Below, in pieces: positions 3,629-19,462 of a stretch of 19,462 bases of DNA; position 1 is the first letter of the stretch, and the number at the start of each line of letters is the position of its first letter. The translations under genes were made by a program, and so were the position numbers. The DNA comes from a bacterium (GTDB lineage: Bacteria; JAJVIF01; JAGGVT01), in the NCBI GenBank assembly GCA_021157815.1, contig JAGGVT010000177.1, forward strand, positions 1 to 19,462, given 5' to 3'. The notes under the pieces were generated by a model that saw only the letters and a list, made by a program, of their open reading frames with translations, was not told the origin of the DNA and searched no databases.

Positions 3629-3665
3629 AACATTCACCTCCGTGAATAATAGGAAAAATATTTAT

Positions 3666-3718: not shown

Positions 3719-3741
3719 CTTGAACATAAAAAAAACGTCCT

Positions 3742-3822: not shown

Positions 3823-3845
3823 AAAAACTCTCGCTTACAAATTGA

Positions 3846-3874: not shown

Positions 3875-4166
3875 GATGCAGGCCGGAAATTATTCTTGAT
3901 TTCCCCTTGTTTTAATAAGGGTTTAAAGGATTGAATGGAAATCGTATCAATTTGTATATCCAACTTTGGTATATTTTATAAAACGCAATCAACCTTAATT
4001 GAGACCTCTGAAAAAGGAGGAAATGATACTGGCTTTTATAAGCGAAAAAGAATAGATTCCGGGTCAAGTCCGGAATGACAATGAAAAATTGGTCAGTTGA
4101 AATTTCATGGATCTTTTGGAAAATGCTCAAAAACTTGTGATTTTGCAGTATCGGTGGAATGTTGAA
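3875..4166. other. Intergenic stretch with repeat remnant
   Basis: I see no gene. ATTCCGGGTCAAGTCCGGAAT at about 4056-4076 is a palindrome-like remnant of the type of intergenic repeat common in many bacteria. A GGAGG followed by ATG near 4017-4025 opens a frame of only ten codons, which I do not regard as a gene. Confidence 0.4.
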
Positions 4167-4345
4167 CCTGGGAGCGCTGGTCTCTGACCGGCATTTTTAC
4201 AATGTTAATGAAAATCAGTAGAGTTTGGTTAACAGATTAAACACCTAAAGACAGGAGTTGAATTTATCAACCATGTTCATAAGATTCCCTTTTTTGCATT
4301 TTGGTTGGTACGTTCAGGTGCCGGTCAGAGACCAGCGCTCCCAGG
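4167..4345. mobile_element. 179-bp element with perfect 27-bp inverted ends
   Basis: Positions 4167-4193 and 4319-4345 are exact reverse complements (27 of 27), beginning CCTGGGAGCGCTGG. They enclose 125 bp of AT-rich DNA with no coding frame. Length and perfect ends fit a MITE-like non-autonomous element or a large palindromic repeat. No target duplication is evident. Perfect arms suggest a recent origin or gene conversion between arms. Confidence 0.6.
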
Positions 4346-4420
4346 AAATAATATATTTGTAATAGGTTAAAATTTAAAACATAGTTTTTCAGGGGCAACT
4401 ACTTTATATTATCAATTGAA

Positions 4421-4449
4421 TTGCTTTAATATTTCGCTTGCGATATACT
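4421..4449 (+). promoter_or_regulatory. Candidate glnA promoter
   Basis: TTGCTT (4421-4426) and TATACT (4444-4449) are spaced 17 bp. Transcription would start near 4456, leaving a leader of about 108 nt before glnA. No sigma-54 -24/-12 element was seen by eye. Confidence 0.5.
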
Positions 4450-4563
4450 CCCTCACTTATTAAGGAAGATAGTTGATTCAGTCTGATTGTATGCGATAAA
4501 GCAATCCTGCTGAAATCGATATCGACCTGTAATAGGCATTAACACTGCTTTGGGAGAGATACA

Positions 4564-5976: not shown

Positions 5977-6074
5977 TGATGTTTTGAAAACCGAGCCACG
6001 AACGTTAGTGAGGGGTCGGTGCGATAATAGATGAGCTTGAATATGAATCGGAAAACCTCTCATTTACAAGAGGC

Positions 6075-6261
6075 TGTCGGGAAAGGCGCCAACCCGATTT
6101 AAAACGTCGGTTGCTGCCCATACAGCCGTCCTGGCTTTATAGGTGACATGTTGCGAAGTTATGCATTTCACCCACAAATCACAAAAAGACGTGATGTGTG
6201 GGCGGCACCCGAGAGTTATCAGATACATGCTATGCTTAAAGATTAACATGCTTTCCCGACA
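6075..6261 (+). mobile_element. MITE-like family A, copy 1
   Basis: A 187-bp non-coding element runs from TGTCGGGAAAGG to CTTTCCCGACA. Related copies lie at 12538-12758 (opposite orientation) and 16712-16898. The shared inner block includes TTTCACCCACAAATCACAAA and GTGTGGGCGGCACCCG. Inner palindromes (GGTGCCGCCCA/TGGGCGGCACC) are partly decayed in this copy. It lies between arms of a degenerate inverted repeat (CCGAGCC near 5991 and GGCTCGG near 6277). No transposase is present, so it would need an enzyme in trans. Confidence 0.75.
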
Positions 6262-6316
6262 GGCTCTCACGTTCGAGGCTCGGATAATCTTTGAATTAGA
6301 ATAACCCAAATCAAAA

Positions 6317-6350
6317 AGCATGGAGATTCAGCTCCATGCTTTTATTATTT
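6317..6350. terminator. Bidirectional terminator between glnA and the 891-aa lipoprotein gene
   Basis: AGCATGGAG and CTCCATGCT form a perfect 9-bp stem with a 6-nt loop (6317-6340). It is flanked by TTTTATTATTTT on the plus side and a run of A (T on the minus strand) on the other side. Convergent genes end on both sides. Confidence 0.85.
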
Positions 6351-6374
6351 TCCACTCAATATGATATATATATC

Positions 6375-9050
6375 CTACGTGTTATTGTGCCCAATAAACG
6401 GATTGTTGGGACCACCGTAATCAAGCCAGAATCCATGCACATGCGGGAAATACCCCGGAATCGCATACATGGTAAACTGCGGAATCCTGTGCTCATGATC
6501 ATATGGCGGTGTATCAGTATTTATCTGGTAATCATCGATTAGCACTGTTTCACCATGCACATTCATGACTGTCATGAAAACCTGTGTGTAAGGATGCCTT
6601 TTATCCTCATAGATGACCCACGCATTATCGCTTTCCGGATTGATTACAATATCCGGTTTAAACTGGTTTGCGATAGGGAAATCATCGTTATTAACGACAA
6701 TGGGTTTTGTAAAACTTTTAGCTCCATCTTTTTTCATGGCAATGGCAATATCGGAACCGGCAATCGAGAAACTTCCGGTATCCTCCCAGACTATAACCGG
6801 CTCATTATGCGACGTAAGCGCCATTTTGGGCCAGTTTGCAGTGCCTAAAAAATTACTGTTCACTATATAGCAGAAATAATAAGGGAATTGGTTAGACGTA
6901 TCAGTGTTAGTGTAGAGAAGGTAATACCTGGTCCCCCAGTTTATCTGGTAAACAATGTGCTCCACACCATCATCCCCGATCATGACATCGACATAAGGCC
7001 TTGGATAAAGTGAGTAATAATAATCCACCAATACTTCCGAAAAGGTGGCTGTATCGCCAAGCCAGTCAATACGGGCATTTGTGCTTGAATAAAGGCATGC
7101 CTTATTTCTTGTGCTGTAGTTTGTTGAGATTACGATATGGTTGGAGTTGCCAGCATCACCCGCGATGGCGATATCTGGAGACAGAGAGGGATTATCATAA
7201 TTCGTGTCCACTCGGGTCAAAGTCCAGTTGACTTCATTAGAGCCTGATTTGGTTCCCATCTTGTAGATTACATTTGAGCTGCCGTCAATCCAGGCGCATA
7301 TGGGATTCCCATCCGCGTTGACATCACAGGCGATAGTCTTGACTGCATCGTTGATATCATCGGCATGGATGGAAATCTGCTGTGGTACACCCCATGTAAC
7401 GCCATTATCGCCTGATCGCTGCGACCAGATTGATTCATCCGTACCGACTCTTCCACGGTAAACCAGGAAAATGTTGTTGCCATCCTGAGCAACATTTGCG
7501 CGGTCAAACCGGATGTTTGACATGATGCTGTCGGTGTGAGTGATAATTTGCTGTGTCGGGTTGAATGGATTTTGCGTCATTGAAATGTCAATGGTAAACG
7601 GCATGTATGTTGTGAAATCACTGATCGGGAAAATCGAGATGCCATCACGCTCAACACCGATTGACAGCGGTGCTCCCTCAAGTTCATCACGAACCGCGAC
7701 AAGTCCGTTATATGTTCCAAGTCCGGCGCCGTTTTCATTCTGGACCTGGATTCGGTATTTCAACGGGTTACTTTCAGAACCATCGCCGGATTCAGGTGTT
7801 GTCCATATGAATAGATAGTCCTCATAAGGTGGATCAAGTGAGCCACCAGTGGCGTCCTTATCATAACCCAATTTAAATCCGGGAATGTCAACCGAAACCT
7901 CTCTTACACCACTCACAGCTGTGTAATCACCGGCTCGTGATGTCATTGGGTCAAAAGATGAGGATGAAACCAGGTGTCCATCGCTTTCCTGCCAGTCGCG
8001 AACATAAACAACAATATCAGCTGTCGATGTTGGACTCTGTGGGAGAAGCTCATTATTCTCGACAGTTACATATACCCGCCATGCCTCTTTGCGATTGAAC
8101 TGAGGGCAGAAATAGCGGGGCCAGAGCCGTTCTCCGAGATTTGTTCCCTGTCCTTTGGCTGACTGGCCATAAGATGCGCTGATGACCATCAGGAAACTGA
8201 AGGTTTCTCCGGGACCAATATTAAGCGTATAATCAACGTAATCCATGGAGGATCCCATTCCCATTACATTATATCCACGAGCGCTGTTTACACTAAGGAA
8301 TCCTGTTGTCGTGCTGTTCGGGTCGAAATTACCCTCGAAAGGATATTCGAAGAACATTTTAAATGGATGCGTGTTGAAATCAGTGGGGTAGATGTCGTCG
8401 ATTACTTCATCAAGTGTGGTGTTATAGCCATATGCGTCAACCAGAAATCCTCCTGAATCAATCTTTATGGTTTTATCTGATGTATGCGGCTTGCCGTCGA
8501 TATCGCTTCGTGTCGCGGGGAATTCCCGAATTCTTGTTGTTTCACTTCCATCAGGAGGATTCATGAAAACAACGCCCTGGACATCAAAAACATGAAGGTC
8601 TTTTCTGTTTAGATATTCGGGGAAATGCGGTTGAGGAAGATCATACGGATGTTTCAACCCAAAAGTAACAACCACGTACCCATCCTCATCAATATTTATC
8701 TCATCTATAATCAGGCAGTCAACACAGGGAGATATAAGAAGAAAATCCGTGATGTCAACGATAAAAAAATCTCCAATGCCTGTGTTTGAACGCAAACCGG
8801 TAACTTCACCTGTAAGGTTCTTAACATCGATATCAATCTCGTACGCTCCCAGAATTCCATATGCATTCGAGCCAGGGCCATTCAGTTCGGAAGTCGCAAG
8901 GATTGGGAATGTGTCAAAGTCATATGCCGGGTCGTTTCCAGTGGCATCTGGAGCAACAGATGAGCCTCCTGAACAGGAAGCAAGAAAAGCCATAAACAAT
9001 ATTGTGATGATTGAAAAACCAAGCCTGTGGGGAATATGATTTGTCCTCAT
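6375..9050 (-). CDS. Large lipoprotein with Asp-box beta-propeller-like region
   Basis: 891 aa. A signal peptide ends in a lipobox (FLASC, Cys26), so the protein should be lipid-anchored, probably at the outer membrane. Residues 45-165 form a beta-rich domain with conserved features such as a paired Cys (CVDC, 109-112) and the run LKHPYD. Residues 180-480 are further beta-rich modules. An Asp-box, SGDNGVTW (546-553), typical of sialidase/BNR propellers, begins a C-terminal region of repeated blades (about 505-880) with strings such as NGNPI-type turns and AWID. The catalytic Arg triad of sialidases could not be identified, so enzymatic activity is not claimed. GAGG lies about 8 nt before the ATG. 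It is the first of three lipoprotein genes on this strand, each separately terminated. Its function is unknown; surface binding or secreted scaffolding is plausible. Confidence 0.8.
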   Translation of the reverse strand: MRTNHIPHRLGFSIITILFMAFLASCSGGSSVAPDATGNDPAYDFDTFPILATSELNGPGSNAYGILGAYEIDIDVKNLTGEVTGLRSNTGIGDFFIVDITDFLLISPCVDCLIIDEINIDEDGYVVVTFGLKHPYDLPQPHFPEYLNRKDLHVFDVQGVVFMNPPDGSETTRIREFPATRSDIDGKPHTSDKTIKIDSGGFLVDAYGYNTTLDEVIDDIYPTDFNTHPFKMFFEYPFEGNFDPNSTTTGFLSVNSARGYNVMGMGSSMDYVDYTLNIGPGETFSFLMVISASYGQSAKGQGTNLGERLWPRYFCPQFNRKEAWRVYVTVENNELLPQSPTSTADIVVYVRDWQESDGHLVSSSSFDPMTSRAGDYTAVSGVREVSVDIPGFKLGYDKDATGGSLDPPYEDYLFIWTTPESGDGSESNPLKYRIQVQNENGAGLGTYNGLVAVRDELEGAPLSIGVERDGISIFPISDFTTYMPFTIDISMTQNPFNPTQQIITHTDSIMSNIRFDRANVAQDGNNIFLVYRGRVGTDESIWSQRSGDNGVTWGVPQQISIHADDINDAVKTIACDVNADGNPICAWIDGSSNVIYKMGTKSGSNEVNWTLTRVDTNYDNPSLSPDIAIAGDAGNSNHIVISTNYSTRNKACLYSSTNARIDWLGDTATFSEVLVDYYYSLYPRPYVDVMIGDDGVEHIVYQINWGTRYYLLYTNTDTSNQFPYYFCYIVNSNFLGTANWPKMALTSHNEPVIVWEDTGSFSIAGSDIAIAMKKDGAKSFTKPIVVNNDDFPIANQFKPDIVINPESDNAWVIYEDKRHPYTQVFMTVMNVHGETVLIDDYQINTDTPPYDHEHRIPQFTMYAIPGYFPHVHGFWLDYGGPNNPFIGHNNT

Positions 9051-9131
9051 TTTTTTACCTCGGTTTTACACCAACGGAATCGCGCCGATATTAGTCAAAA
9101 TTGCGAAATTTCAGTAGTTATCCTTATATGT

Positions 9132-9137
9132 ATTATA
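9132..9137 (-). promoter_or_regulatory. Possible -10 of the 891-aa lipoprotein gene
   Basis: A perfect TATAAT on the minus strand lies about 80 nt before the start codon in an AT-rich stretch. No good -35 is seen at the expected distance. Confidence 0.35.
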
Positions 9138-9217
9138 GAATAATAGGATAGATAAATACAGTAATAATTTCTATTCATTTAAGTTAGACGTGAACTTCAC
9201 CGAATTGTTACAACGTC

Positions 9218-9249
9218 AAAAAAAAAAAAGAGCTCTTAAGAGCCCTTTT
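9218..9249 (-). terminator. Terminator of the parvulin-tailed lipoprotein gene
   Basis: Minus strand: GGGCTC-TTAA-GAGCTC stem (9245-9230, one G-T pair) followed by twelve T (9229-9218). It lies about 45 bp past the stop codon of the upstream lipoprotein gene, and separates it from the next gene. Confidence 0.8.
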
Positions 9250-9293
9250 AATTTGGTTGAGATAATCAGGTGTCTGAATATTTCCAAACGCCT

Positions 9294-10124
9294 TTATTCA
9301 TCTTTTTTATCATCTTTCTTGTCAGGTATGTAGATATATCCAGCCTCAACACGGTCATCGGTGTCATCAATAAGCTGGACGATGAGAAATCCATCCATGA
9401 ATTTCACTGTTTCACTTACCTGTCCCGGTTTAAGCTTTGCGAAAAACTCTTTTGCCTTTTTGCCGATTTTTTCCTTTGACACAGGTCCCGCGATTCCAGC
9501 TTTTGCATTCAAGTCGCTTAATGAAGCGATGTATTTCTCGATTTGCGAGAACAGGGCGCGGGCGGTATCCGGCCTGTCCACCAGATTTGCCAGCGTTTCC
9601 CAGGCAGCCTGGATATCCTTTGTGGATGGTAGCTGCCTTGCGTTCTTTACCATATCTTTCATTGTTGTTGGTTCGGAACCCGCTGGGGATTTATCATTTG
9701 GTTGTGCTGTGTGGCTTATTTCGCTCCGGACAATTTCATCCAGAATTTTAAGCGCGTTTTGCGCTTTCTTAATATTTTCTTTTCGAATTTTAGCGGCGGA
9801 ATTAACAACGCCGCGGTCAACCGCGGATGTTATCCCCTGTTGGAGCTGCAATGCTCTCATCTGGGCAGGTGTGGGAATATTGTCAGGAGAATCGCCCTCG
9901 ATAAGGACCTCAAGCGCTTCAAGAGCCGACCAGAATCCCTCGGTAATGTCCTCTTTCAAATAGGGCGCGGCATCGGCGATATTTTGGGTTGCTTTCTTGA
10001 CACCCTCGTTAACAGATTCAATGATATCCTTGCCGGTCTCATCTGTAGTTTCTTTTGCGACATCACCAGAACAACTTGCCATGGTAATCAGGACACATAT
10101 TACAATAAATAGCTTTGAACTCAC
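9294..10124 (-). CDS. Lipoprotein with a parvulin-like C-terminal segment
   Basis: 276 aa from the chosen GTG. GGAGG lies 5 nt before this GTG, whereas an in-frame ATG four codons earlier has no ribosome site and contains the GGAGG itself. A short signal peptide ends at ITMASC, so Cys18 should be lipidated. The middle is helical and Lys/Glu/Ala-rich with no recognised domain. The end (about 213-256, GPVSKEKIGKKAKEFF then LKPGQVSETVKFMDGFLIVQL) resembles the C-terminal half of PpiC/parvulin rotamases, where a helix is followed by L-x-x-GxVS-x-x-V-x-x-x-x-G-x-x-I-x-x-x. The N-terminal half of a parvulin, with its active-site residues, is not seen, so it is probably not an active isomerase; it may be a chaperone-like envelope protein. 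The tail is charged (KKDDKKDE). Its own terminator follows. Confidence 0.75.
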   Translation of the reverse strand: MSSKLFIVICVLITMASCSGDVAKETTDETGKDIIESVNEGVKKATQNIADAAPYLKEDITEGFWSALEALEVLIEGDSPDNIPTPAQMRALQLQQGITSAVDRGVVNSAAKIRKENIKKAQNALKILDEIVRSEISHTAQPNDKSPAGSEPTTMKDMVKNARQLPSTKDIQAAWETLANLVDRPDTARALFSQIEKYIASLSDLNAKAGIAGPVSKEKIGKKAKEFFAKLKPGQVSETVKFMDGFLIVQLIDDTDDRVEAGYIYIPDKKDDKKDE

Positions 10125-10175
10125 GATGGCCTCCATGAAACGGTTGGTTTCATTTACGTATCTGTAATAAATCCA

Positions 10176-10194
10176 TGGGATTACTATAATCCCA
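10176..10194. promoter_or_regulatory. 19-bp palindrome upstream of the lipoprotein gene
   Basis: TGGGATTA-CTA-TAATCCCA is a perfect palindrome with 8-bp arms, 50-70 bp before the start codon at 10124. Size and place fit a binding site for a dimeric regulator or a leader hairpin. The regulator is unknown. Confidence 0.4.
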
Positions 10195-10340
10195 GAATAT
10201 TGTCAGGAATATATATTGAATGATTCACAGTGTGATTTAAACATTAATGCTCCTTAAATAAAGGTTTAATAAGGGATTTGAAGCATTAGCGTCCTGTAAT
10301 ACGCATATTTCACGACATCTGAAAAAATAAAAATTCTTGA

Positions 10341-10364
10341 AAAAAACTCGCGCAAAAGCGCGAG
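10341..10364 (-). terminator. Terminator of the BIG2/FN3 lipoprotein gene
   Basis: Minus strand: CTCGCGC-TTTT-GCGCGAG (10364-10347), a perfect GC-rich stem, followed by six or more T. It lies 36 bp after the stop codon. Confidence 0.9.
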
Positions 10365-10399
10365 GGAATTTCAAACACGTTGAAACTAATTAACCGCAG

Positions 10400-11143
10400 C
10401 TATTCATCCCATGGGTCTTCAGGGTTGAAATCGAGTTCAGCCTCATGGGAAAAAACACCGATGACATCATCTTCAGTCACCGCGGCAACGACATAATACA
10501 GAATCCCGCCACCCGGATTTATGTCGGTGAAGTGATTGAGTATTATTATATCTTCGTTCAATGGCTCGTCTTTATCGTAGCCCTCACCGGATGTTCTTGT
10601 CCTGTAAACGTTGTATCCCATTATGTTGGCTTCAGGGGAATAGCTCCATGAAATAAAAGCTTCGTTGCCTAGAATTGTCGCATTCACGTTCCTTACCGGT
10701 TCAGGCGGATACTCATCCCTGCTAAAGACATTAGCGAATGAATAGCTGGCGTACACGATATTATCCGAGCTTTGCTGGAAATACGCGCCTACACCGGCAT
10801 ATCCCGTTCCCAATGCATGAAAAACACCCTTGTCGGTGAGGTATCCAACACTTTCGTTGGTCGAATACCAGGTAACAACACCAGTGATGTCAATTATCGC
10901 GCTGTCGGAATAATAGCCATAAGCTTTGTAAATTTGACTGCCTTGATCTTCAATGTTAACTGCTTCCGGTTCAATGATAATTGCGTTCAGCCTTGGGCCA
11001 GTAGGCACCTGAGCCTGTGGGATATCAGTATTGCCTGGCAGTGAGTAAACGGGAATTCCAGTGTTGTCGGGGGTGCCTGAACACCCGATGCAGCACATAA
11101 TCGATAGTAAAACCAGGACCACGCTGATGCCGATATATCTCAT
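10400..11143 (-). CDS. Lipoprotein with BIG2-like and FN3-like domains
   Basis: 247 aa. A hydrophobic N-terminus ends at CCIGC, so Cys21 should carry the lipid. Residues about 52-138 resemble a bacterial Ig-like domain 2: a segment with VVTWYSTNESVGYLTDKGVF follows the BIG2 pattern (W-S-S-N-x-x-V-A-x-V-x-x-x-G-x-V-x-A), continuing into HALGTGYAGVGAYF. Residues about 143-236 resemble fibronectin type III (PEPVRNVNATI, then WSYSPEANIMGYNVYRT, then LYYVVAAV). Such proteins are typically surface-anchored adhesion or structural proteins. A strong AGGAGG lies before the ATG. A small hairpin (AACCTG/CAGGTT, 11211-11227) lies in the leader region. It is separately terminated from its two lipoprotein neighbours. 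Confidence 0.82.
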   Translation of the reverse strand: MRYIGISVVLVLLSIMCCIGCSGTPDNTGIPVYSLPGNTDIPQAQVPTGPRLNAIIIEPEAVNIEDQGSQIYKAYGYYSDSAIIDITGVVTWYSTNESVGYLTDKGVFHALGTGYAGVGAYFQQSSDNIVYASYSFANVFSRDEYPPEPVRNVNATILGNEAFISWSYSPEANIMGYNVYRTRTSGEGYDKDEPLNEDIIILNHFTDINPGGGILYYVVAAVTEDDVIGVFSHEAELDFNPEDPWDE

Positions 11144-11336
11144 CGTGGACCTCCTGAAATTTATGATTGTAATAATAAAATAATCCCAAAATCACCCCGT
11201 ACAAAAATTCAACCTGATAAACAGGTTACAGGGACAACAAAAACTATCACAGTATCAGCTTTAAATCAAGGAACAAAGTTGGCACAGGTGGATTTGAAAT
11301 TACTTTCAGATGTAGTTGGACTAAAGCAGGACGTTG

Positions 11337-11540
11337 TTGTGGTGCGGGCATCCTGGGGCTGTTGAAAAAGGGCTGAATGTAGGGGGTAGGTCTCTGTGCC
11401 TACCCTAAATATTGGCATAAATACAGGGCAACCACGGAGAGTTGCCCTTACGGTCTGGGATATAATAGGCTTTTTCAACAGCCCCATCCTTCCTGCAATC
11501 TTGAGTTGGAAACTGTTCAGGCAGGATGCCCGCACCACAA
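11337..11540. repeat. Hairpin repeat interrupted by a MITE-like element
   Basis: The 18-bp arms TTGTGGTGCGGGCATCCT (11337-11354) and its exact complement (11523-11540) now lie 168 bp apart. Taking out the 131-bp element at 11355-11485 and one ATCCT restores a compact hairpin with arms of about 23 bp and one mismatch. A fragment of the same repeat lies at 183-202. Confidence 0.8.
11355..11485 (-). mobile_element. MITE-like family B, copy 1 (131 bp)
   Basis: The ends GGGGCTGTTGAAAAAGGG and CTTTTTCAACAGCCCC are inverted repeats, with no coding frame inside. The identically sized copy at 14308-14438 and the truncated one at 19351-19462 lie in the opposite orientation. ATCCT is directly repeated at both edges (11350-11354 and 11486-11490), consistent with a 5-bp target duplication. 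Internal inverted repeats (GGGCAAC/GTTGCCC and others) make it strongly foldable. Confidence 0.8.
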
Positions 11541-11597
11541 ATTTACCGGATATTTATTCAATTCATTTAGCTCTGAGACAGCTTTCTATTCAGGATA

Positions 11598-12521
11598 TCA
11601 ACATTCGATCGATTTGCCATCCTCGGCGTATGTCATTTCAACAGCCGCGATACCAGCCGCGTCTATTGCCATTTTCTCAATTTCCAGAAATGAGTTCAGC
11701 GGGTTGTGATGAATTGTTACTGCTGTCCTGACCTTTGCCTCACGAGCTAATAACGCGACTGCCAGATTTGAACTATGCCCGTTCTGTCCGCTCAACCCAA
11801 GCAAATCCTTAACCTGTGCCGGAGTAACGACATCAGCGGGGATTTTATCCGCGAACCAGCAGTCATGAAGGAGAACATTCACTCCCATTGCGAATCCGAT
11901 TGTTTCATATTCAGGTTCAGTGTCCGTGCAGTAGGCGAGATGGTCACCAATTCTAACCGCGACAGTCGGATGAACATGCGACATCTGCGCGCGGAATCGA
12001 ATATCAATCCCATCGATTTTCATCCCGCTCATCGGGATATCCTTAATTTCAATCGACGGGATGAAATCCGCGAGTTTCCTTGGCAGCTGCGGCGGCTGAA
12101 ATGTATTTTCCAAAATGTCCTTCGCGCTTTTTGAATATAGGCCTTTGCCGGGAGCATACAAATCAAGATGGCGATTTGTGAAAAACGCAGGCAAGTAGAA
12201 CAATCCCATTATGTGATCAATGTGATAATGGCTGATTATCCCCGTTACTTTCTCGATGCCATTTAGAAGGTAGTCGTGTTCCTCTATCAGGCGCGTGATG
12301 CCGGTTCCGAAATCGAGCAGCACAAGAGTTTTACCTTTTTTAAAAGCGTAACATGCGGTGTGACGGCCTTTAACGGGAATCCATCCGCCTGAACCGAGCG
12401 GTGTGAGTACAGCTTTTGCGGGTTTATCCACGGCATCTTTCCCGTTTCCATTTTCAATCATTTTACCCATGCGGTGTATGATAACAGAAACGGAAAATAA
12501 TGGCACGTTGGAGATTAACAT
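11598..12521 (-). CDS. RNase Z-like metallo-beta-lactamase-fold hydrolase
   Basis: 307 aa. The metal-binding set of the MBL fold is complete. It comprises HYHIDH (98-103, the HxHxDH motif), His184 in SHVHPT, Asp200 in YCTDTEPE and a late His at 271/272 (TIHHNP); GHSS near 248-251 is an extra His. LLDFGTG at 68-74 is the usual strand before the active site. The layout matches RNase Z, CPSase-like or cyclic-nucleotide phosphodiesterase relatives. The long exosite arm of tRNase Z is not evident, so I do not call it tRNA 3' processing. The domain starts around residue 37, and neither the first ATG nor the internal ATG at codon 18 (12470) has a clear ribosome site, so the start is uncertain. It is a single gene between a family B and a family A element. 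Confidence 0.85.
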   Translation of the reverse strand: MLISNVPLFSVSVIIHRMGKMIENGNGKDAVDKPAKAVLTPLGSGGWIPVKGRHTACYAFKKGKTLVLLDFGTGITRLIEEHDYLLNGIEKVTGIISHYHIDHIMGLFYLPAFFTNRHLDLYAPGKGLYSKSAKDILENTFQPPQLPRKLADFIPSIEIKDIPMSGMKIDGIDIRFRAQMSHVHPTVAVRIGDHLAYCTDTEPEYETIGFAMGVNVLLHDCWFADKIPADVVTPAQVKDLLGLSGQNGHSSNLAVALLAREAKVRTAVTIHHNPLNSFLEIEKMAIDAAGIAAVEMTYAEDGKSIEC

Positions 12522-12537
12522 ATCAGAATAACATTAT

Positions 12538-12758
12538 CAGAGGATTTAAGAGGTTGTCGGGAAAACAAATTGATTTTTGAACTTACCATTCTACTGATAG
12601 CTATCGGGTGCCGCCCACACATCACGTCTTTTTGTGATTTGTGGGTAAAACGTGTAACTTCGTAATATTTCACCCATAAAGCCCGGAGGGCTGTATGGGC
12701 GGCACCCAGCAATTTGGATCAACTTGACGCCTTTCCCGACATTTTCTTAAACCCTCTG
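12538..12758 (-). mobile_element. MITE-like family A, copy 2 (best-preserved ends)
   Basis: The inverted ends extend to about 28 bp here. The left end runs CAGAGG-TTTAAGAGG-TGTCGGGAAA in outline, with a matching complement ending at 12758, and a few mismatches in the middle. The inner block CGGGTGCCGCCCA...TGGGCGGCACCC and the TTTGTGATTTGTGGGT segment match copies at 6075-6261 and 16712-16898 in opposite orientation. It has no coding capacity. It lies in the spacer between divergent genes. Confidence 0.78.
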
Positions 12759-12775
12759 CTATTCCAGATGAAAAT

Positions 12776-12784
12776 TGATATAAT
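12776..12784 (+). promoter_or_regulatory. Extended -10 of the SRPBCC gene
   Basis: TGATATAAT at 12776-12784 is a full extended -10. Transcription would start near 12791, leaving a leader of about 35 nt with GAGGTG before ATG. The -35 region is weak. The same nonamer precedes the Nudix gene. Confidence 0.5.
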
Positions 12785-12825
12785 GCCTGAAGGATAAAAT
12801 CCTGGCAAATAGCTAGAGGTGAAAC

Positions 12826-13281
12826 ATGGGAGTAATAAAAGCTGAAGTTCTAATAGACGCGCCACCATCTGAGGTTTTCGAAATGGCGCGGCGGGTCGAG
12901 GATTATCCCGATTTCATGCCCGATGTCGAGGAGGTCGAGATTCTAAGCCGTGATGACATAACCGGTATCGCGCGTGTCAGATGGCTTGGCAAGGTTGAGA
13001 TTAAGTCGATTCGGAAAAAGGTGCGGTGGACTGAAGAGGAGATATGGGACTCGGATAAATTGGCGGGAAAGTTTTCATTAATCGAGGGCGATTACAAAAC
13101 CTACGGCGGCAACTGGGAATTTGAAAAGGTTGATGATAGCAAAACGCGCCTGACTCTTGAACTCGATTTCAATTTGGGATTGCCGCTTGTGGGCCCCATT
13201 ATCAACAAGCTGCTCGATAAACTGATGTTGACAAACTGCCAGGGAATGCTCGATGCGATTAAGAAACGGGTGGAATCGTAA
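12826..13281 (+). CDS. SRPBCC/START-like protein (RatA/Coq10-related)
   Basis: 151 aa, a full-length single helix-grip domain. The opening strand IKAEVLIDAPPSEVFEMARRVEDYP followed by DFMPDVEEVEIL is the family's signature start (Ala-Pro at the strand end, then a helix with the YP-x-F-x-P motif). The C-terminal helix (about 120-150) closes a hydrophobic pocket. Relatives bind lipids or quinones (Coq10), act on polyketides, or act as the toxin-like RatA; function cannot be assigned from the sequence. AGAGGTG lies 6 nt before the ATG. The next gene follows after about 120 bp that includes no terminator, so co-transcription with the permease gene is possible. Confidence 0.85.
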   Translation: MGVIKAEVLIDAPPSEVFEMARRVEDYPDFMPDVEEVEILSRDDITGIARVRWLGKVEIKSIRKKVRWTEEEIWDSDKLAGKFSLIEGDYKTYGGNWEFEKVDDSKTRLTLELDFNLGLPLVGPIINKLLDKLMLTNCQGMLDAIKKRVES

Positions 13282-13402
13282 TATTACATTTTAGTAGCCG
13301 CCCGCTCGCGGTGGTGCATACGATGAAATTCTTTACACAAACACTCATCCGCATTAAAATCACACGCAGTTAAAACAATTTAATATCCAGACGGGCTGAC
13401 CT

Positions 13403-14218
13403 ATGAATCCCAAAAACCTGCATCCGTTGAAAGCGGATGACATACCGCCAAATCCCTTGACATATCTCAGGATATCCGTCCTGGCAGTATCAGCGTTGAT
13501 AGCTATTTTCATCTATGCCTGGTCGTTCAAGGCGGTGGAGTTTTCATTTGGTTCCCTAATCGATGGCGCGGACAAGATGCTGAATTTTCTCAGGGGCATG
13601 TTCCCGCCGGATTTGACAATTCTCAAAAGGGTTTTCGATGAAACGCTTCTAACAATACAGCTCGCGCTCGTGGGAACAACTCTGTGCGTGATTGTGGCAT
13701 TTCCGTTGAGCTTTCTCGCCGCCAAAAATACAGCGCCTGCATGGACGTATTACATCGTGCGGTTTTTCTTCAACGCCGTCCGCGCAATCGATACGCTTGT
13801 ATTCGCTCTTATTTTTGTCGCATGGGTCGGATTGGGCCCGTTTCCCGGAATGTTGGCGATGGCGGTTCATTCAATAGGAATGTTGGGAAAGCTTTTCAGT
13901 GAGGCAATTGAAAATATCGATACGGGACAGGTCGAGGCGCTCGAAAGCGTGGGAGCGTCAAGGATGGAGATAATTCGATGGGCTGTTATCCCGCAGGTTT
14001 CGAGTTATTTCATATCGTATTTTTTGTACAGGTTCGAGATTAACATCCGCGCGGCTGTGGTGCTTGGCCTTGTTGGAGCGGGTGGAATCGGGCAGTATCT
14101 TAAAACAAACATGGATTATTACGCCTATGAAAAAGTCTCGGTGATAATCTTCACGATACTCGTGCTTGTGATGACAATTGATGCCTTCTCGAACTGGCTC
14201 AGGCGCAGGTTGTTGTAA
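13403..14218 (+). CDS. phnE: PhnE-type phosphonate/phosphate ABC permease (orphan)
   Basis: 271 aa, normal length for PhnE. Membrane segments are at about 22-43, 83-108, 115-150, 195-215 and 240-262. The cytoplasmic EAA loop, EALESVGASRMEIIRWAVIP (179-198), contacts the ATPase in the ABC complex. The pattern RAIDTLVFALIFVAWVGLGPFPGMLA is typical of the PhnE family. The transporter normally needs the ATPase PhnC and the binding protein PhnD. Neither is adjacent: upstream is an SRPBCC gene, downstream a repeat element and then DUF47/PiT. It is either an orphan permease served by components elsewhere, or a remnant. No clear ribosome site (GGGCTGACCT before ATG). Confidence 0.85.
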   Translation: MNPKNLHPLKADDIPPNPLTYLRISVLAVSALIAIFIYAWSFKAVEFSFGSLIDGADKMLNFLRGMFPPDLTILKRVFDETLLTIQLALVGTTLCVIVAFPLSFLAAKNTAPAWTYYIVRFFFNAVRAIDTLVFALIFVAWVGLGPFPGMLAMAVHSIGMLGKLFSEAIENIDTGQVEALESVGASRMEIIRWAVIPQVSSYFISYFLYRFEINIRAAVVLGLVGAGGIGQYLKTNMDYYAYEKVSVIIFTILVLVMTIDAFSNWLRRRLL

Positions 14219-14291
14219 ACATTTGCAGATTAGCATCCCTTAAGCTGTTATTTCTTAAACTGCCGCTTGGCACTAATTTAGCAGAATAACA

Positions 14292-14454
14292 CGTCATTCC
14301 CGCTTTCGGGGCTGTTGAAAAAGCCTATTATATCCCAGACCGTAGGGGCAACTCTTCGTGGTTGCCCTGTATTTATGCCAATATTTAGGGTAGGCACAGA
14401 GACCTCCCCCATACATTCAGCCCTTTTTTAACAGCCCCTTTCGCGGGAATGACG
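14292..14454. repeat. Hairpin palindrome split by a MITE-like element
   Basis: The arms CGTCATTCCCGC (14292-14303) and GCGGGAATGACG (14443-14454) are perfectly complementary. TTTC, or TTTCG, follows the left arm and precedes the right arm. Removing the insert and one TTTCG restores a simple 12-bp stem with a TTTC loop. The same split palindrome occurs at 16691-16918, and its left half in the reverse loop orientation at 19335-19350. Confidence 0.85.
14308..14438 (+). mobile_element. MITE-like family B, copy 2 (131 bp)
   Basis: The element has the same length and ends as copy 1 (GGGGCTGTTGAAAAAG to TAACAGCCCC), in the opposite orientation. It differs by only a few bases from the copy at 19351, so movement may be recent. 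It sits in the loop of the palindrome at 14292-14454. No coding frame. Confidence 0.82.
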
Positions 14455-14522
14455 GAATCTTGTTTAGTTGGAATCCAATTGAAATGTTTGTGTACCATTG
14501 GTACCTGGCAACAATTTATAAT

Positions 14523-14577
14523 TGTTAGAATATTGTTAGAATTCTGTTAGACATCCACAAGTATCTATTCATATAAT
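14523..14577 (+). promoter_or_regulatory. Promoter with three 11-bp direct repeats (Pho-box-like)
   Basis: TGTTAGA occurs at 14523, 14534 and 14545, exactly 11 bp apart, as TGTTAGAATAT, TGTTAGAATTC and TGTTAGACATC. PhoB boxes are 11-bp direct repeats with a CTGTCAT-like core, so this resembles one in spacing and partly in sequence. The last repeat overlaps the -35 region (TAGACA, 14548-14553). A -10 TATAAT at 14572-14577 follows after 18 bp. It lies just upstream of a phosphate transport operon. The PhoB role is inferred. Confidence 0.55.
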
Positions 14578-14613
14578 GATGCGTTTTCTCATCTTGAAGG
14601 GAGGATGAAAGTA

Positions 14614-15285
14614 ATGCGATCTATATTTCAACTCTTTGCAAAATCTCCACTTGGCCCAATGGAAAAACACATGTCCAAGGTTAAGGAATGTGTTGATAAG
14701 GTTCCTGAGATGTTTGCAGCTCTTTATGAAAACAATCATGAACGCGTGAAGGAAATCGCGAAGGAAATCTGGACACTCGAACATGAGGCAGACCAGATTA
14801 AGACGGAAATCCGCGATAACATCCCGCGCAATATAATGCTGCCAATGGATAAAAAAGATTTTCTAAGCCTTCTGTCCGCGCAGGATAATATCGCTGATAC
14901 TGTCGAGGACCTTGGCTACATACTGACAATTCGTAAAACAACAGTTCCTGATGAATTGAAACCGGAACTCAAAATATTTCTTGAAAGTGTCCAAAAGGTT
15001 GTCGATCAGGCAATGGAAATTGTCGCTGAACTTGGCAATCTTGAGGCAACTTCATTCGGTGGCTATGAGGCAAAGGAAGTTTTAAAAATGGTCGATGTGC
15101 TAGGGCTTGCTGAATGGGAGTCCGACAAACGCCAGTACAAACTGTCCCAAAAGCTCTTTGAACTTGAGGACCAAGAAAGCCCGGTTTCGATTTTCATGTG
15201 GACGCATATAATCATCACATTGGCGAAAATAGCAAATGGCTCCGAGAAATTAGGCAAGATGATTAGGGGAACACTGGCAACCTGA
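14614..15285 (+). CDS. DUF47 (PhoU-like) phosphate transport regulator
   Basis: 223 aa. An all-helical DUF47/TIGR00153 protein with the family start MRSIFQLFAKSPLGPMEKHM and helices rich in Glu and Lys. HEADQIKTEIRDNIPRNIMLPMDKKDFLSLL (54-84 from this start) is the PhoU-like metal-binding segment, and SAQDNIADTVEDLGY follows. The family pairs with PiT transporters, usually in an operon, and is thought to modulate uptake. I chose the ATG at 14614: GGGAGG lies 9 nt before it, while the ATG at 14605 directly abuts GGGAGG with no spacing. The PiT gene starts 46 bp downstream. It is likely under the direct-repeat promoter upstream. Confidence 0.88.
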   Translation: MRSIFQLFAKSPLGPMEKHMSKVKECVDKVPEMFAALYENNHERVKEIAKEIWTLEHEADQIKTEIRDNIPRNIMLPMDKKDFLSLLSAQDNIADTVEDLGYILTIRKTTVPDELKPELKIFLESVQKVVDQAMEIVAELGNLEATSFGGYEAKEVLKMVDVLGLAEWESDKRQYKLSQKLFELEDQESPVSIFMWTHIIITLAKIANGSEKLGKMIRGTLAT

Positions 15286-15331
15286 TTGTATTTTGATTTG
15301 AACCACTACTAACCGGTTAGGGGAAACCGAA

Positions 15332-16609
15332 TTGGAATATATTTCATACGCACTCTGGGTTGCTCTCGCTGTCGGTGCCTACATGGCATGGAACATCGGT
15401 GCCAACGATGTCGCCAACTCAATGGGCACCTCTGTCGGTTCAAAAGCGATTAAGCTCAAGTATGCAATGTGGGTCGCGGCGATAATGAATTTCCTCGGCG
15501 CGGTCCTTGTAGGCCCCAACGTTTCCAGTACTGTTCGCGGCAAAATAGTTGATCCCGCGATTTTCACTGACATAAATATATTCATTATTGGCATGCTGGC
15601 AGCGCTTCTGGCATCCGCAATCTGGCTGAATGTTGCGACATCCCTCGGCTGGCCTGTTTCAACAACTCATTCAATCATAGGAGCAATTCTCGGATTTGGT
15701 TTAATCACTCATGGAGTCAAAGCTGTTAACTGGATAGTAACGCTTAAAATAGTCGCGAGCTGGGTTATTTCACCGGTCAGCGGAGGGATTATCGCATCGC
15801 TTGTTTTCATTGTGATAATCAGATTAATCTTCTTTGCAAAAAGGCCAATTGAAGCCGCAAAGCGGTGGATACCGTGGATAATCGCGGGTACTGTCGCGAT
15901 AATAATCCTGTCGTTGTTCTATAAAGGATTAAAAAACCTGCATCTGATTCAAAGCAAATCCGACCCCGGTGCTCTTTTGCCGTGGTGGTCAACATTCGCA
16001 TTTGCCGCCGCAGGCGCGATAATCGCTTATCTTCTTGGAAAACTATGGATGAGCAGAATTTCAGTTTCCGATAATGAAACTACCCGAACACAAAAGTTCA
16101 AGGTTGTTGAAAATATATTCGCCAAACTGCAGGTGGCAAGCGCATGTTATGTCGCTTTCGCCCACGGCTCAAATGATGTTGCTAATGCCATAGGCCCTGT
16201 TTCAGCTGTGGTCGCGGCGGCACAACATGGAGTTATCGATGCCAAAGCTCCGGTTCAAATTTGGCTTCTTATGGGTGGAGGGGTTTTTATCGGTGCCGGA
16301 ATCATAATCTGGGGCTGGAGGGTTATTAAAACAATCGGTGAGAAAATCACAAGCATTACGCCAAGCCGTGGATTCGCGGCTGAATTCGGAGCTGCGACAA
16401 CTGTTCTTATGTGCTCCCAGATGGGATTACCCATTTCAACTACTCATACACTTGTCGGTGCGGTTATCGGTGTTGGATTCGCGCGTGGAATGAAAGCACT
16501 TGATTTGGGAGTGGTTCGTAAAATCGTTGAAAGCTGGGTTTACACAATTCCGTTTACCGCGGTGCTCACGATAATTATTTTCTTCATACTCAAAGCGGTT
16601 TGCTTGTAG
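15332..16609 (+). CDS. pit: PiT-family inorganic phosphate transporter
   Basis: 425 aa, about 10-12 membrane segments, inner membrane. It carries both signature repeats: NIGANDVANSMGTSVG (21-36) and AHGSNDVANAIGPVSA (278-292). It also has the paired (V/I)STTH motifs (109-113 and 368-372), showing the internal duplication of the family. It imports phosphate, usually as a metal-phosphate complex, driven by the H+ or Na+ gradient. A soluble loop (about 200-215, 240-265) separates the halves. The start is TTG: AGGGG lies 8 nt upstream and there is no nearby ATG. A 12-bp perfect palindrome CTAACCGGTTAG (15309-15320) overlaps the ribosome site region. It lies 46 bp after DUF47 and should be co-transcribed. 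Confidence 0.95.
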   Translation: MEYISYALWVALAVGAYMAWNIGANDVANSMGTSVGSKAIKLKYAMWVAAIMNFLGAVLVGPNVSSTVRGKIVDPAIFTDINIFIIGMLAALLASAIWLNVATSLGWPVSTTHSIIGAILGFGLITHGVKAVNWIVTLKIVASWVISPVSGGIIASLVFIVIIRLIFFAKRPIEAAKRWIPWIIAGTVAIIILSLFYKGLKNLHLIQSKSDPGALLPWWSTFAFAAAGAIIAYLLGKLWMSRISVSDNETTRTQKFKVVENIFAKLQVASACYVAFAHGSNDVANAIGPVSAVVAAAQHGVIDAKAPVQIWLLMGGGVFIGAGIIIWGWRVIKTIGEKITSITPSRGFAAEFGAATTVLMCSQMGLPISTTHTLVGAVIGVGFARGMKALDLGVVRKIVESWVYTIPFTAVLTIIIFFILKAVCL

Positions 16610-16642
16610 TTCCCGAGTCAATGTGATTGTATATTATTTTTT

Positions 16643-16663
16643 CCCGGCTAATGATGAGCTGGG
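16643..16663 (+). terminator. Weak hairpin after the PiT gene
   Basis: CCCGGCT and AGCTGGG form a 7-bp stem with one G-T pair and a 7-nt loop. Only a poor T-rich tail (TTACAATTATTCTTT) follows. It is a possible terminator of the DUF47-PiT operon. Confidence 0.35.
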
Positions 16664-16690
16664 TTACAATTATTCTTTAGCTGAACTATA

Positions 16691-16918
16691 CGTCATTCCC
16701 GCTTTCGGGACTGTTGGGAAAGGCGCCAATCCGAATAAAAACATCGGGTGCCGCCCATAAGACCGTCTCGGTTTTATGGGTGACAGGTTGCGGAGTTACG
16801 CATTTCACCCACATATCACAAAAAGACGTGATGTGTGGGCGGCACCCGAAAGCTATCAGGTAAATGCTGTGTTTGAGAATTAACGTGCTTTCCCGACAGA
16901 CCCTTTCGCGGGAATGAC
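16691..16918. repeat. Second split palindrome, hosting family A
   Basis: The arms GTCATTCCCGC (16692-16702) and GCGGGAATGAC (16908-16918) are perfect complements. TTTCG is directly repeated at 16703-16707 and 16904-16908, just as at 14292-14454, but the insert is a family A element, not family B. Removing it restores the same 4-nt-loop hairpin. Confidence 0.85.
16712..16898 (+). mobile_element. MITE-like family A, copy 3
   Basis: 187 bp from TGTTGGGAAAGG to CTTTCCCGACA. The inner inverted repeat CGGGTGCCGCCCA (16744-16756) and TGGGCGGCACCCG (16836-16848) is intact here, and a GGTTTTATGGGTGACAGG segment matches copy 1. It lies inside a palindrome (16691-16918). It is non-coding. Confidence 0.82.
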
Positions 16919-16955
16919 ATAATCGAGATTTTCGGGAAATGGATTTTTTCGAGAT

Positions 16956-17864
16956 ATGAATATCAACGGATTCCTAAATATAAACAAACCACGCGGACCG
17001 ACATCGCACGACATCGTCCGCAGTCTGAAACGATTATTAAATGTGGGCGCGCGTCATAAAATTGGACACACAGGCACTCTCGACCCGCCGGCATCCGGTG
17101 TGCTTGTGATTGGAATCGGGCAGGCAAACCGTCTGGCTGAATATATCCTGATGCACCCAAAGGAATACAAAGGGATAATCAAGCTCGGTACATTTACAGA
17201 TACACTCGATGCCGATGGCGAAACAACTGAAACAAAAGAGATTCCCGGATTTGATAAAAACGTTCTGGATGAGATAACGCCGGCATTTACAGGCGATATC
17301 ATGCAGGTCCCGCCGATTGTCAGCGCGTTAAAAAAAGATGGCGAACGTTATTATGTCAAAGCTCGACGGGGTGAAACCGAGGAGCCTCCCGCCCGAAAAG
17401 TTACAGTTTACGCATTGAAACTGGATAAAATCGATGATGAAACTGTTGGACTTTATGTGCAATGTTCAAGCGGATTCTATGTCCGTTCACTGGCAAGGGA
17501 TATCGCGAGGCAAATCGGGACGGTTGGGCATCTGGATGAACTGGTAAGGATTTCAGTAGGTCCATTTAAAATCGAGGATGCAATCGATCTCGACTGGATA
17601 GAGCAAAACGGCGCGGATGCGGTTTTTAAAAACCGAATGAATCCTCTTGATTTCCCAATGGATATCCTTCCACGGATTGAAATCGATGGGGAAGAGGCAT
17701 CGCTGTTTAAACAGGGAATGAAGCGCCATGTCGCACCACCGGAGGATTTGCCCCATAATGCGGATATTGCGGTTTACAGTCCGGATGGATTTATTGGCAT
17801 AGGTCTGCTTAAACATGAAAACGACAATTTGATTCTAAAACCCCGCAAAGTGTTTGGGAAATAA
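16956..17864 (+). CDS. truB: tRNA pseudouridine-55 synthase TruB
   Basis: 302 aa, normal length. TruB makes pseudouridine at position 55 in the T-arm of tRNAs. Seen: GFLNINKPRGPTSHDIV (5-21), catalytic motif GHTGTLDPPASGVL (37-50) with Asp43, QVPPIVSALKKDGERYYVKAR (117-137) and SGFYVRSLARDI (172-183). The usual LDP-L-A-T-G is LDP-P-A-S-G here, with the catalytic Asp kept. The last 80 residues form the C-terminal domain, including an IEIDGEEASLFKQG segment. Usual neighbours rbfA, ribF and rpsO are absent. No clear ribosome site. A six-codon frame (ATG at 16939) ends in a TGA overlapping the start ATG, like the arrangement at the KARI-like gene. Confidence 0.95.
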   Translation: MNINGFLNINKPRGPTSHDIVRSLKRLLNVGARHKIGHTGTLDPPASGVLVIGIGQANRLAEYILMHPKEYKGIIKLGTFTDTLDADGETTETKEIPGFDKNVLDEITPAFTGDIMQVPPIVSALKKDGERYYVKARRGETEEPPARKVTVYALKLDKIDDETVGLYVQCSSGFYVRSLARDIARQIGTVGHLDELVRISVGPFKIEDAIDLDWIEQNGADAVFKNRMNPLDFPMDILPRIEIDGEEASLFKQGMKRHVAPPEDLPHNADIAVYSPDGFIGIGLLKHENDNLILKPRKVFGK

Positions 17865-17869
17865 AATCG

Positions 17870-17898
17870 CAAGACCTCCCGTATTGGGAGGCCTTGCA
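17870..17898. terminator. Strong hairpin between convergent truB and 98-aa gene
   Basis: GCAAG-A-CCTCCC pairs with GGGAGG-C-CTTGC around a 5-nt loop. It is a long stem with one mismatch, between convergent genes. The minus-strand side is followed by GATTTTATTTC, so it best serves as the terminator of the 98-aa gene. The plus-side tail has few T. Confidence 0.65.
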
Positions 17899-17925
17899 TA
17901 TCTAAGGAGGAGATTCGTGACTAGT

Positions 17926-18222
17926 TTAGTCTTCCAGATTTAATAAATCTTCAGGAGATAGTGTGCGAAGGAAATCCTCAATCTCGGCGTTGTCTCCTAA
18001 TTCATCATCCAGCTCAAACTGCTTCTTCAGCAGAAGATAGACAACGATGCCTGTTCCAATTATTTCAAGCGAATTTCTGGATTTCTGTGCCTGAACCTGG
18101 ATATACTCCGCAATTCGTGGGTTTTCCTTCTTGATGTCCTTAAAAAGAGCTTTTAGATCATAATTTCTGCTGTTGAGCTCATCGCTTACCTTTTCAACTG
18201 CATCTTCTGATACGAATATCAT
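17926..18222 (-). CDS. Unknown 98-aa protein with a central hydrophobic segment
   Basis: I do not recognise the family. Residues 1-50 are charged and probably helical (DAVEKVSDELNSRNYDLKAL). Residues 53-66 (EIIGTGIVVYLLLK) form a short hydrophobic stretch that is marginal as a membrane helix. The tail (68-98) is very acidic with LSPEDLLNLED. GGGAGG lies 5 nt before the ATG and a terminator-like hairpin follows the stop, so it is probably a real, singly transcribed gene. It could be a small membrane-associated effector or antitoxin-like partner, but no partner gene is present. Codon use is unremarkable. Confidence 0.6.
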   Translation of the reverse strand: MIFVSEDAVEKVSDELNSRNYDLKALFKDIKKENPRIAEYIQVQAQKSRNSLEIIGTGIVVYLLLKKQFELDDELGDNAEIEDFLRTLSPEDLLNLED

Positions 18223-18365
18223 AACTGCCTCCCGACTCCAAACGCTTTTTGCGTTTTTATCTTTTCATTGTCCTTCACTCATTTTTGATGCGATGATTAT
18301 GTTTTTCATAGGTTATACTGATATTTTTTTATATGTGCCTGTTATCCATCAATCCGGAAAATCCG

Positions 18366-18568
18366 GTGTCAGACACTAAAATTTCGGTGTCAGAGCCCTT
18401 GAGTGTCTTAATGTAGGGTGTCAGACCCCCTGATGCATTTTGCACATCGACGCTGTGAACGATAAACAGGTTGGTAGACAGACTTTACATTATGTGGCAT
18501 TAAAAATTAACTTGGGATATAGGTGTCAGACTCCTTGAGCCTGGGCTCCTTGAGCCTGGGCTCCTTGA
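18366..18568. repeat. Scattered GTGTCAGA repeats and a 15-bp tandem
   Basis: GTGTCAGA occurs at 18366, 18387, 18418 and 18523. CTCCTTGAGCCTGGG is duplicated in tandem at 18531-18560 and begins a third time. No gene is seen in 18240-18660. The pattern suggests remnants of a short-unit repeat that expanded by slippage and decayed. Confidence 0.6.
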
Positions 18569-18624
18569 TAATACCATTGTCAAGTGCCTGAAATGCTTAA
18601 ATCTGTGTATTATCCAAGTATTGA

Positions 18625-18654
18625 TTTACCAGGATAATAACAGCGTGATATAAT
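18625..18654 (+). promoter_or_regulatory. Promoter of the Nudix gene (leaderless transcript)
   Basis: TTTACC (18625-18630) and TATAAT (18649-18654) are spaced 18 bp, with TGA just before the -10, giving an extended TGATATAAT. A start about 7-10 nt later falls on or next to the ATG at 18664. No ribosome site exists between. A leaderless mRNA is likely. Confidence 0.55.
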
Positions 18655-18663
18655 CATCGCGCC

Positions 18664-19293
18664 ATGACAACAACCCCAAAAAATTCAACCAACGACAAAT
18701 TCAACTCGGAGCAGGTGCTTGTTGCGCCCGATGATATATTCAAAACCATCCTTGGCGATGGCGAGGATTTCTTTCGTTCAAGCGCTGAAACACTGATTGA
18801 AATCAAACGGAAGGCATCGTTTATCGCGCGGGAAAAAGCTGAGAATGATGAGTCCTTCCGCCAGATTATTCCCTATGTTGTGATTTACAGGACTCATCCG
18901 AAAACCGAGTTCTTTCTTTTTAAGCGTCTGAACACACAGGGCGAGGAACGTCTTCACAATTTGTATTCACTTGGAGCGGGCGGGCACATAAATCCAATCG
19001 ATAAAAAAAAGCATGACCCTTTGTCTGCCGGATTGATGCGTGAACTTGAGGAAGAGCTATTCCTTCCGGATTCCTATGAGCTTTCTTTTAAAGGCTGGAT
19101 TTATTCAAGAATCGACCCGGTGGCGTGTGTCCATGCGGGGATGATATATTTAATGAATGTCCCGGATGGTGAAATCAGAATTCGCGAAACAGACAAGATG
19201 ACAGGCGAATGGTGCGATATTCCCGCATTGATTTCCCGCAAGGACAGCATGGAGGGATGGTCGAGAATTGTGCTTGAACATCTGATAGGGTAA
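18664..19293 (+). CDS. Nudix hydrolase
   Basis: 209 aa. The Nudix fold is shown by the segment GAGGHINPIDKKKHDPLSAG followed by LMRELEEEL (104-132). The core REUxEE (126-131, RELEEE) binds the divalent metals. Compared with Gx5Ex7REUxEExGU, the leading Glu is Asp118 and the first Gly is five residues further away. This matches a subgroup of longer Nudix proteins with a GGH-x-N motif rather than MutT itself. An upstream 65-residue N-terminal extension and the late WIYSRIDPVACVHAGMIY region may contribute substrate specificity. Likely substrates are nucleoside diphosphates linked to another moiety; the specific one is not known. It lacks a ribosome site and appears leaderless from an extended -10 promoter. 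A repeat element begins 5 bp after the stop. Confidence 0.88.
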   Translation: MTTTPKNSTNDKFNSEQVLVAPDDIFKTILGDGEDFFRSSAETLIEIKRKASFIAREKAENDESFRQIIPYVVIYRTHPKTEFFLFKRLNTQGEERLHNLYSLGAGGHINPIDKKKHDPLSAGLMRELEEELFLPDSYELSFKGWIYSRIDPVACVHAGMIYLMNVPDGEIRIRETDKMTGEWCDIPALISRKDSMEGWSRIVLEHLIG

Positions 19294-19297
19294 ATAG

Positions 19298-19325
19298 CAG
19301 AGGGTTTTAGAGCGTGTCGGTAAAG
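19298..19325 (+). mobile_element. Solo end of family A element
   Basis: CAGAGGGTTTTAGAGC followed by GTGTCGGTAAAG matches the 28-bp end of the element at 12538-12758 with few changes. No second end is present in the window. It directly follows the Nudix gene stop codon and precedes a split palindrome. It is a fragment or an intact element broken by later insertion. Confidence 0.6.
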
Positions 19326-19350
19326 CTAGGCACCCGTCATTCCCGCGAAA

Positions 19351-19462
19351 GGGGCTGTTGAAAAAGCCCATTATATCCCAGACCGTAGGGGCAACTCTCC
19401 GTGGTTGCCCTGTATTTATGCCAATATTTAGGGTAGGCACAGAGACCTACCCCCTACATTCA
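19351..19462 (+). mobile_element. MITE-like family B, copy 3 (cut by window end)
   Basis: The first 112 bp of the 131-bp element run to the window edge, almost identical to the copy at 14308. The left flank CGTCATTCCCGC-GAAA (19335-19350) is the same palindrome arm with the loop read in the other direction (GAAA, not TTTC). The far side lies outside the window. Confidence 0.8.

Follow-up and report, generated by a model that had tools for sequence, protein, structure and literature searches.

The window, the whole 19,462-nucleotide stretch of DNA that was analysed, is the entire contig C137 (JAGGVT010000177.1, positions 1 to 19,462 of the forward strand) of a 3.2 Mb bacterial draft genome, whose nearest relatives in the genome collection are at class level. 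It carries copies of two families of miniature elements, A and B, several of which interrupt hairpin-forming palindromes:

6070-6266, + strand: exceptional family A copy with good ends (sequence)
11342-11497, − strand: site B2, second hairpin type (GTGCGGGC-ATCCT-[T/G]CCTGCA) split by family B (sequence; intact paralogues)
12546-12750, − strand: third hairpin type (CAGAGGATT..AAACCCTCTG) split by family A at 12550-12746 (sequence)
14292-14454, + strand: site B1, CGTC-type hairpin split by family B (sequence; intact paralogues with TTTC/GAAA loops)
14308-14438, + strand: B1 element, family B MITE of 131 bp with 16-bp ends GGGGCTGTTGAAAAAG / CTTTTTTAACAGCCCC
16691-16918, + strand: site A1, CGTC-type hairpin split by family A (sequence)
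16707-16903, + strand: A1 element, family A MITE of 197 bp with ends GGGACTGTTGGGAAAG / CTTTCCCGACAGACCC
19335-19350, + strand: site B3, left half of a CGTC-type hairpin in the opposite orientation, loop GAAA (CGTCATTCCCGC GAAA) (sequence)
19351-19462, + strand: B3 element, family B MITE, partial at the contig end (family B matches)

At B1, the arm CGTCATTCCCGC (14292-14303) and TTTC (14304-14307) precede the element, and TTTC (14439-14442) and the arm GCGGGAATGACG (14443-14454) follow it, a direct read that confirms the 131-bp family B insertion reported at 14308 in a first-pass annotation of this DNA. The family A insertion that the same annotation had placed in this type of hairpin is present at A1, flanked by CGTCATTCCCGC (16691-16702) and TTTC (16703-16706) on the left and by TTTC (16904-16907) and GCGGGAATGAC (16908-16918) on the right, although it measures 197 bp from 16707 rather than 187 bp from 16708, and the loop bases repeated at both edges are the four of TTTC rather than TTTC(G). 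Two further family B sites were found as described: the insertion into the GAAA orientation of the same hairpin type at 19335, where the element starts at 19351, and B2, where GTGCGGGC and ATCCT (11350-11354) are followed by a reversed family B copy (11355-11485), a second ATCCT (11486-11490) and TCCTGCA. The family A copy at 12550-12746 is bordered by duplicated TTAA (12546-12549 and 12747-12750), and the copy at 6070-6266 lacks both a direct repeat and a palindrome at its flanks.

Other repeats are also present in the window. Relic element ends lie beside hairpin halves at 204-219 (GCAGGCATCCT abutting TGGGCTGTTGAAAAGG) and at 19310-19325 (AGCAGAGGGTTTTA abutting GAGCGTGTCGGTAAAG), in both cases with a partner end that is not clear. 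A perfect 27-bp inverted repeat, CCTGGGAGCGCTGGTCTCTGACCGGCA, spans 4167-4345 with its arms 125 bp apart and resembles either a pair of GGGAGCGC hairpins or another interrupted palindrome. An array of 8-bp units (TTAGCAGG/TTAGTAAG) occupies 7-180, its motif also adjoining several copies of family A in other parts of the genome, and four copies of a 169-nt repeat (64-87% identity) lie between 2619 and 3642.

Families A and B each have at least 40 matches in the draft genome, and their copies were studied in 1.10 Mb of it, in stretches picked partly for holding copies. Both conform to the description of MITEs, being short (197 bp and 131 bp respectively) and non-coding, with inverted ends, target duplications and many near-identical copies. 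Family B has 55 matches in the 1.10 Mb, 44 of them with both ends, and the 32 full-length copies are 94.7-99.2% identical to the consensus, which suggests a fairly recent spread. Its sites fall into several classes: CGTCATTCCCGC-TTTC-GCGGGAAT, entered in either orientation with a 4-bp repeat; TGCRGGC-ATCCT-GCCTGCA, with 5-bp repeats (ATCCT, AGGAT, ATCTT, ATCAT); CGCCGGC-AAGAT-GCCAGCG, also with a 5-bp repeat; and GGGAGCGCCGCA-GGCTAC-TGCGGCGCTCCC, a perfect 12-bp stem with a 6-bp repeat. By eye, two more copies have 6-base repeats with one mismatch (AGCCTT/AACCTT at L091 and AAGACT/AAGGCT at L095). Family A occupies the palindromes CAGAGGGT-TTAA-ACCCTCTG, CACCATGC-TTTA-GCGTGGTG and ACAAGGGGC-TTAA-GTCCCTTGT, as well as the CGTC hairpin in the window; the first-pass annotation had overlooked that most copies of A lie in other palindromes. 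Family B prefers G+C-rich arms ending in GC, and family A prefers AGAGGGT and CACCATGC arms.

The elements are themselves composite. About 50 occurrences of the family A core (GGTGCCGCCCA...GGGCGGCACC, window 16747-16846) were counted in the 1.10 Mb, often without family A ends, which suggests that A took up a separate repeat or that such a repeat inserted into A. Family B holds a GTAG-type hairpin (GTAGGGGCAAC..GTTGCCC, window 14340-14368), a repeat in a MITE in another repeat, and this hairpin is the sole part of family B that matches the distant genomes G012, G022, G035 and G043.

Among the 44 family B copies with both ends, 11 lack a clean repeat, and most of these resemble mixed halves of two hairpins, flanks that look like the products of recombination or of assembly through the repeat; assembly errors may be involved because four contigs of the draft (C187, C115, C50 and C9) end within family B copies. 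Five copies (L076, L077, L097, L092 and L106) have inverted loop bases (GAAA..TTTC or ATCCT..AGGAT), both halves coming from one side of the asymmetric repeat, as would follow from inversion by recombination or from misassembly. Inverted loop flanks were considered as a second mode of insertion and set aside, as their asymmetry is consistent with misassembly or with recombination between oppositely oriented insertions.

The relation between insertion and palindrome was quantified in a census that required a degenerate end pattern, the matching inverted end no more than 400 bp away and flanking direct repeats of at least 4 bp; palindromes were left out of these criteria to avoid circularity, and a dyad was called where at least 5 of the 8 positions flanking the repeat on one side could pair with their mirror positions on the other. 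The census of the 1.10 Mb yielded 44 elements, with repeats of 4 bp (n = 32), 5 bp (n = 11) and 6 bp (n = 1), and for 40 of them the insertion point coincides exactly with a palindrome's dyad axis, compared with 3.2% of random sites (binomial p ~1e-55), so that the association is not due to chance. Of the four exceptions, one lies in a CGTC hairpin where the element boundary is ambiguous, and in the other three the second half of the site is degenerate or absent. All 23 TTTC/GAAA repeats are 4 bp long and all eight ATCCT-type repeats 5 bp, and family B enters the CGTC repeat in the TTTC orientation 12 times and in the GAAA orientation 11 times. Insertion is thus almost always at the dyad, with direct repeats of 4, 5 or 6 bp centred there, which bears out the earlier description of insertion into palindrome loops with duplicated loop bases.

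Empty sites were represented by paralogous copies within the same genome. Element-free CGTC hairpins number 18 under a strict search pattern and 20 when the pattern is shortened, with a 4-nt tip in 20 of 20; the strict copies have TTTC, GAAA or AAAA loops and many end in a CCA tail. Element-free hairpins of the second type have a 5-nt tip in 15 of 15 cases, and ten of the CACCATGC type have 4-nt tips. CGTC half-sites adjoining an element end number 59 in the 1.10 Mb (at most two per occupied site), against the 20 intact copies. Empty sites without a palindrome, or elements at random sites, would have spoken against palindrome targeting; instead, intact paralogous palindromes were found, and nearly all copies lie inside them.

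A point that the first-pass annotation did not contain is that the length of the duplication changes with the hairpin. When the reconstructed empty sites were folded as DNA, the 4-bp duplications corresponded to a predicted 4-nt loop, the 5-bp duplications to a predicted 3-nt loop together with the A-T pair that closes it, and the 6-bp duplication to a predicted 4-nt loop plus one pair, duplications of 6-9 bp overall amounting to the loop plus one or two closing pairs. Strict equality between duplication and predicted loop was rejected (rank correlation of the two sizes −0.08) and holds only approximately. As loop equality is unsupported, the claim is confined to dyad centring with a tip-dependent length: the dyad is firmly the midpoint of the repeat, and different hairpins give repeats of different parity and length.

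The ends of both families look like those of the IS1182 family. Two degraded IS1182-family copies with B-like sequence are present in the draft genome; the first 24 bp of one remnant (L062) are identical to those of B, its other end is GTATTTCAACAGCCCC, and it is flanked on both sides by halves of the second hairpin type. Two pieces of remnant transposase have NF033551 (IS1182) as their best NCBIfam match, with scores that, owing to truncation of the gene, stay under the full-length cut-off, and match DUF772 and DDE_Tnp_1_6 in Pfam. The connection to IS1182 runs through the matching ends of B, and for A solely through the similarity of its 16-bp ends to those of B, with which they agree at 11 positions; a palindromic target, as reported for some members of the family, was found for 40 of 44 elements of this genome and for six of six in the distant genome described below. 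From this agreement A and B are probably cousins within one IS family, which makes their shared target less surprising, and their earlier designation as unrelated is not upheld. An intact parent transposase able to mobilise these ends was not found in the draft genome, where the intact transposase on contig C155 has different ends, nor was a parent of family A, degraded or intact; this result concerns whether the elements can still move, not which family they belong to. Neither family B nor its transposase was found in the class-level nearest relatives, and a contig scan of other genomes for the parent gave only weak Neisseria matches.

A search with the remnant transposase reached a genome (G065) related to this one at the level of domain only, and hence of another phylum, in which an IS1182 element with ends GAGGGCACTGAAAAAG is present in six intact copies. 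All six lie in different terminator-like hairpins, with 6-8 of 8 pairs in the flanking stems (for example AAAAGCCATGT-AAAATTCAT-ACATGGCTTTT and AAAAGGCTAAGA-AAATGGAT-TCTTAGCCTTTT), and their dyad-centred duplications measure 8, 8, 9, 8, 8 and 6 bp. One further case, with a CAAG repeat and a stem of 8/8, was found in G338. Other IS1182 members occupy 4-bp sites of CTAG or GGCC-like sequence, or have direct repeats that no palindrome surrounds, and a dyad rule for the whole IS1182 family was rejected on account of these subgroups. The IS1182 elements of G037 and G170 have no direct repeat and are bordered by inverted arms that match perfectly or nearly so, as in IS1272. An IS1182 element in G138 (L212, L213) has variable 6-7 bp direct repeats but no clear palindrome.

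It is likely that A and B are non-autonomous, IS1182-ended MITEs that inserted at the two-fold axis of hairpin-forming repeats, the hairpin or cruciform being read and its tip duplicated. A pair of transposases would recognise the hairpin or cruciform that the palindrome extrudes and attach the two ends of the element to different strands, each at the 5' edge of one of the two opposed loops or immediately beside it, and gap repair would then duplicate the hairpin tip, so that the hairpin rather than a fixed stagger would set the length of the duplication. Symmetry appears to be what is recognised, since the CGTC repeat is asymmetric and yet B enters it equally often in either direction. Insertion may be ongoing or may date from a time when a transposase was active, and the copies presumably persist since such repeats are intergenic and plentiful. 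More generally, a subset of IS1182-type transposases may read hairpin or cruciform shape rather than sequence, joining each element end at the foot of the opposed loops, with the tip setting the duplication length, a proposal advanced tentatively and judged somewhat short of probable.

Dyad-centred insertion with repeats of spacer length would also result if a transposase dimer bound inverted half-sites (e.g. CCCGC/GCGGG) in linear double-stranded DNA and tolerated spacers of 4-6 bp, without any hairpin, and the arm preferences of A and B do point to some preference for sequence. Such a dimer would have to accommodate at least five arm sequences in this genome and six unrelated terminators in the case of the G065 element, within which the repeat length alone spans 6-9 bp, and we regard this explanation as unlikely. 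Another reading takes the palindrome arms as outer inverted repeats of the elements rather than target DNA, in keeping with the same arms flanking A and B in the window; however, one element is flanked by at least five different palindromes, and palindromes of the CGTC, second and CACCATGC types exist without an element, so that arms as outer ends were rejected and the reading is given practically no credence. The pattern might instead reflect survival, with random or broadly intergenic insertion followed by selective loss of copies outside the repeats, which, being intergenic, would be harmless landing places. Selection would nevertheless be unable to place 40 of 44 insertions on an exact dyad base pair, which makes this explanation very improbable.

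DDE transposases normally produce target duplications of fixed length. In two sets of MITEs and an intact IS of another phylum, the duplication stays on the hairpin axis and its length varies with the hairpin. Dyad-centred tip duplication may explain the erratic direct repeats of the IS1182 family, which span 2-60 bp and have been noted as an extreme, unexplained case (PMC7335449). If shape is read, these elements would provide a real case of the loop-duplicating pathway hypothesised for IS1272, and if the enzyme reads the cruciform they would be natural reporters of hairpin extrusion in living cells.

The likeness to IS families that target extragenic palindromes, suggested in the first-pass annotation, is supported by several known systems. 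The target CGTC-ATTCCCGC-GAAA-GCGGGAAT-CCA fits the plan of the CGTC-tagged REPs, CGTC and GTAG being tagged REP superfamilies (in the portion of PMC3733652 consulted); members of the CGTC superfamily have a CGTC end, an 8-9 bp stem beginning with AT, a 4-5 nt loop and a CCA tail, and the target has a CGTC end, an 8-bp stem starting with AT, a 4-nt loop and a CCA tail. No description of IS1182-type MITEs inside CGTC or GTAG repeats was found in that portion of the paper. Nine Y1 (RAYT/IS200-like; Y1_Tnp) transposase genes, which might mobilise CGTC and GTAG repeats, are present in the genome (G000; contigs C65, C216, C189, C151, C56, C83, C182, C85 and C84).

Insertion at the palindromy axis of REPs with short direct repeats is known for ISRm22 and ISPsy8 (6 bp and 3 bp respectively), whose hybrid flanks were explained by recombination; in contrast to A and B, these belong to the IS4 and IS3 families, are autonomous and have one fixed repeat length each (PMC1525189). 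Two families with one target also have a precedent, because ISPpu9 and ISPpu10 of the IS110 family share exactly one REP position, although they belong to another enzyme class and insert off axis, nine bases into the REP, with two-base repeats (PMC1525189). Enzyme and target are also alike in IS1272 and TnSha1, which have an IS1182-family transposase and hairpin targets with little common sequence, the targeting of palindromes by IS1182 elements having already been reported (PMC5678879, PMC4923244). Whereas IS1272 deletes the stem-loop, leaving blunt ends and no duplication, here the stems are retained and 4-6 bp of the tip are duplicated. The structure-directed insertion model for IS1272 includes a hypothetical loop-duplicating pathway c, drawn but not demonstrated (PMC5678879), and this model was the only instance of loop duplication found in the open-access literature; as far as that literature shows, a tip-duplicating variant with dyad-centred repeats of variable length is new.
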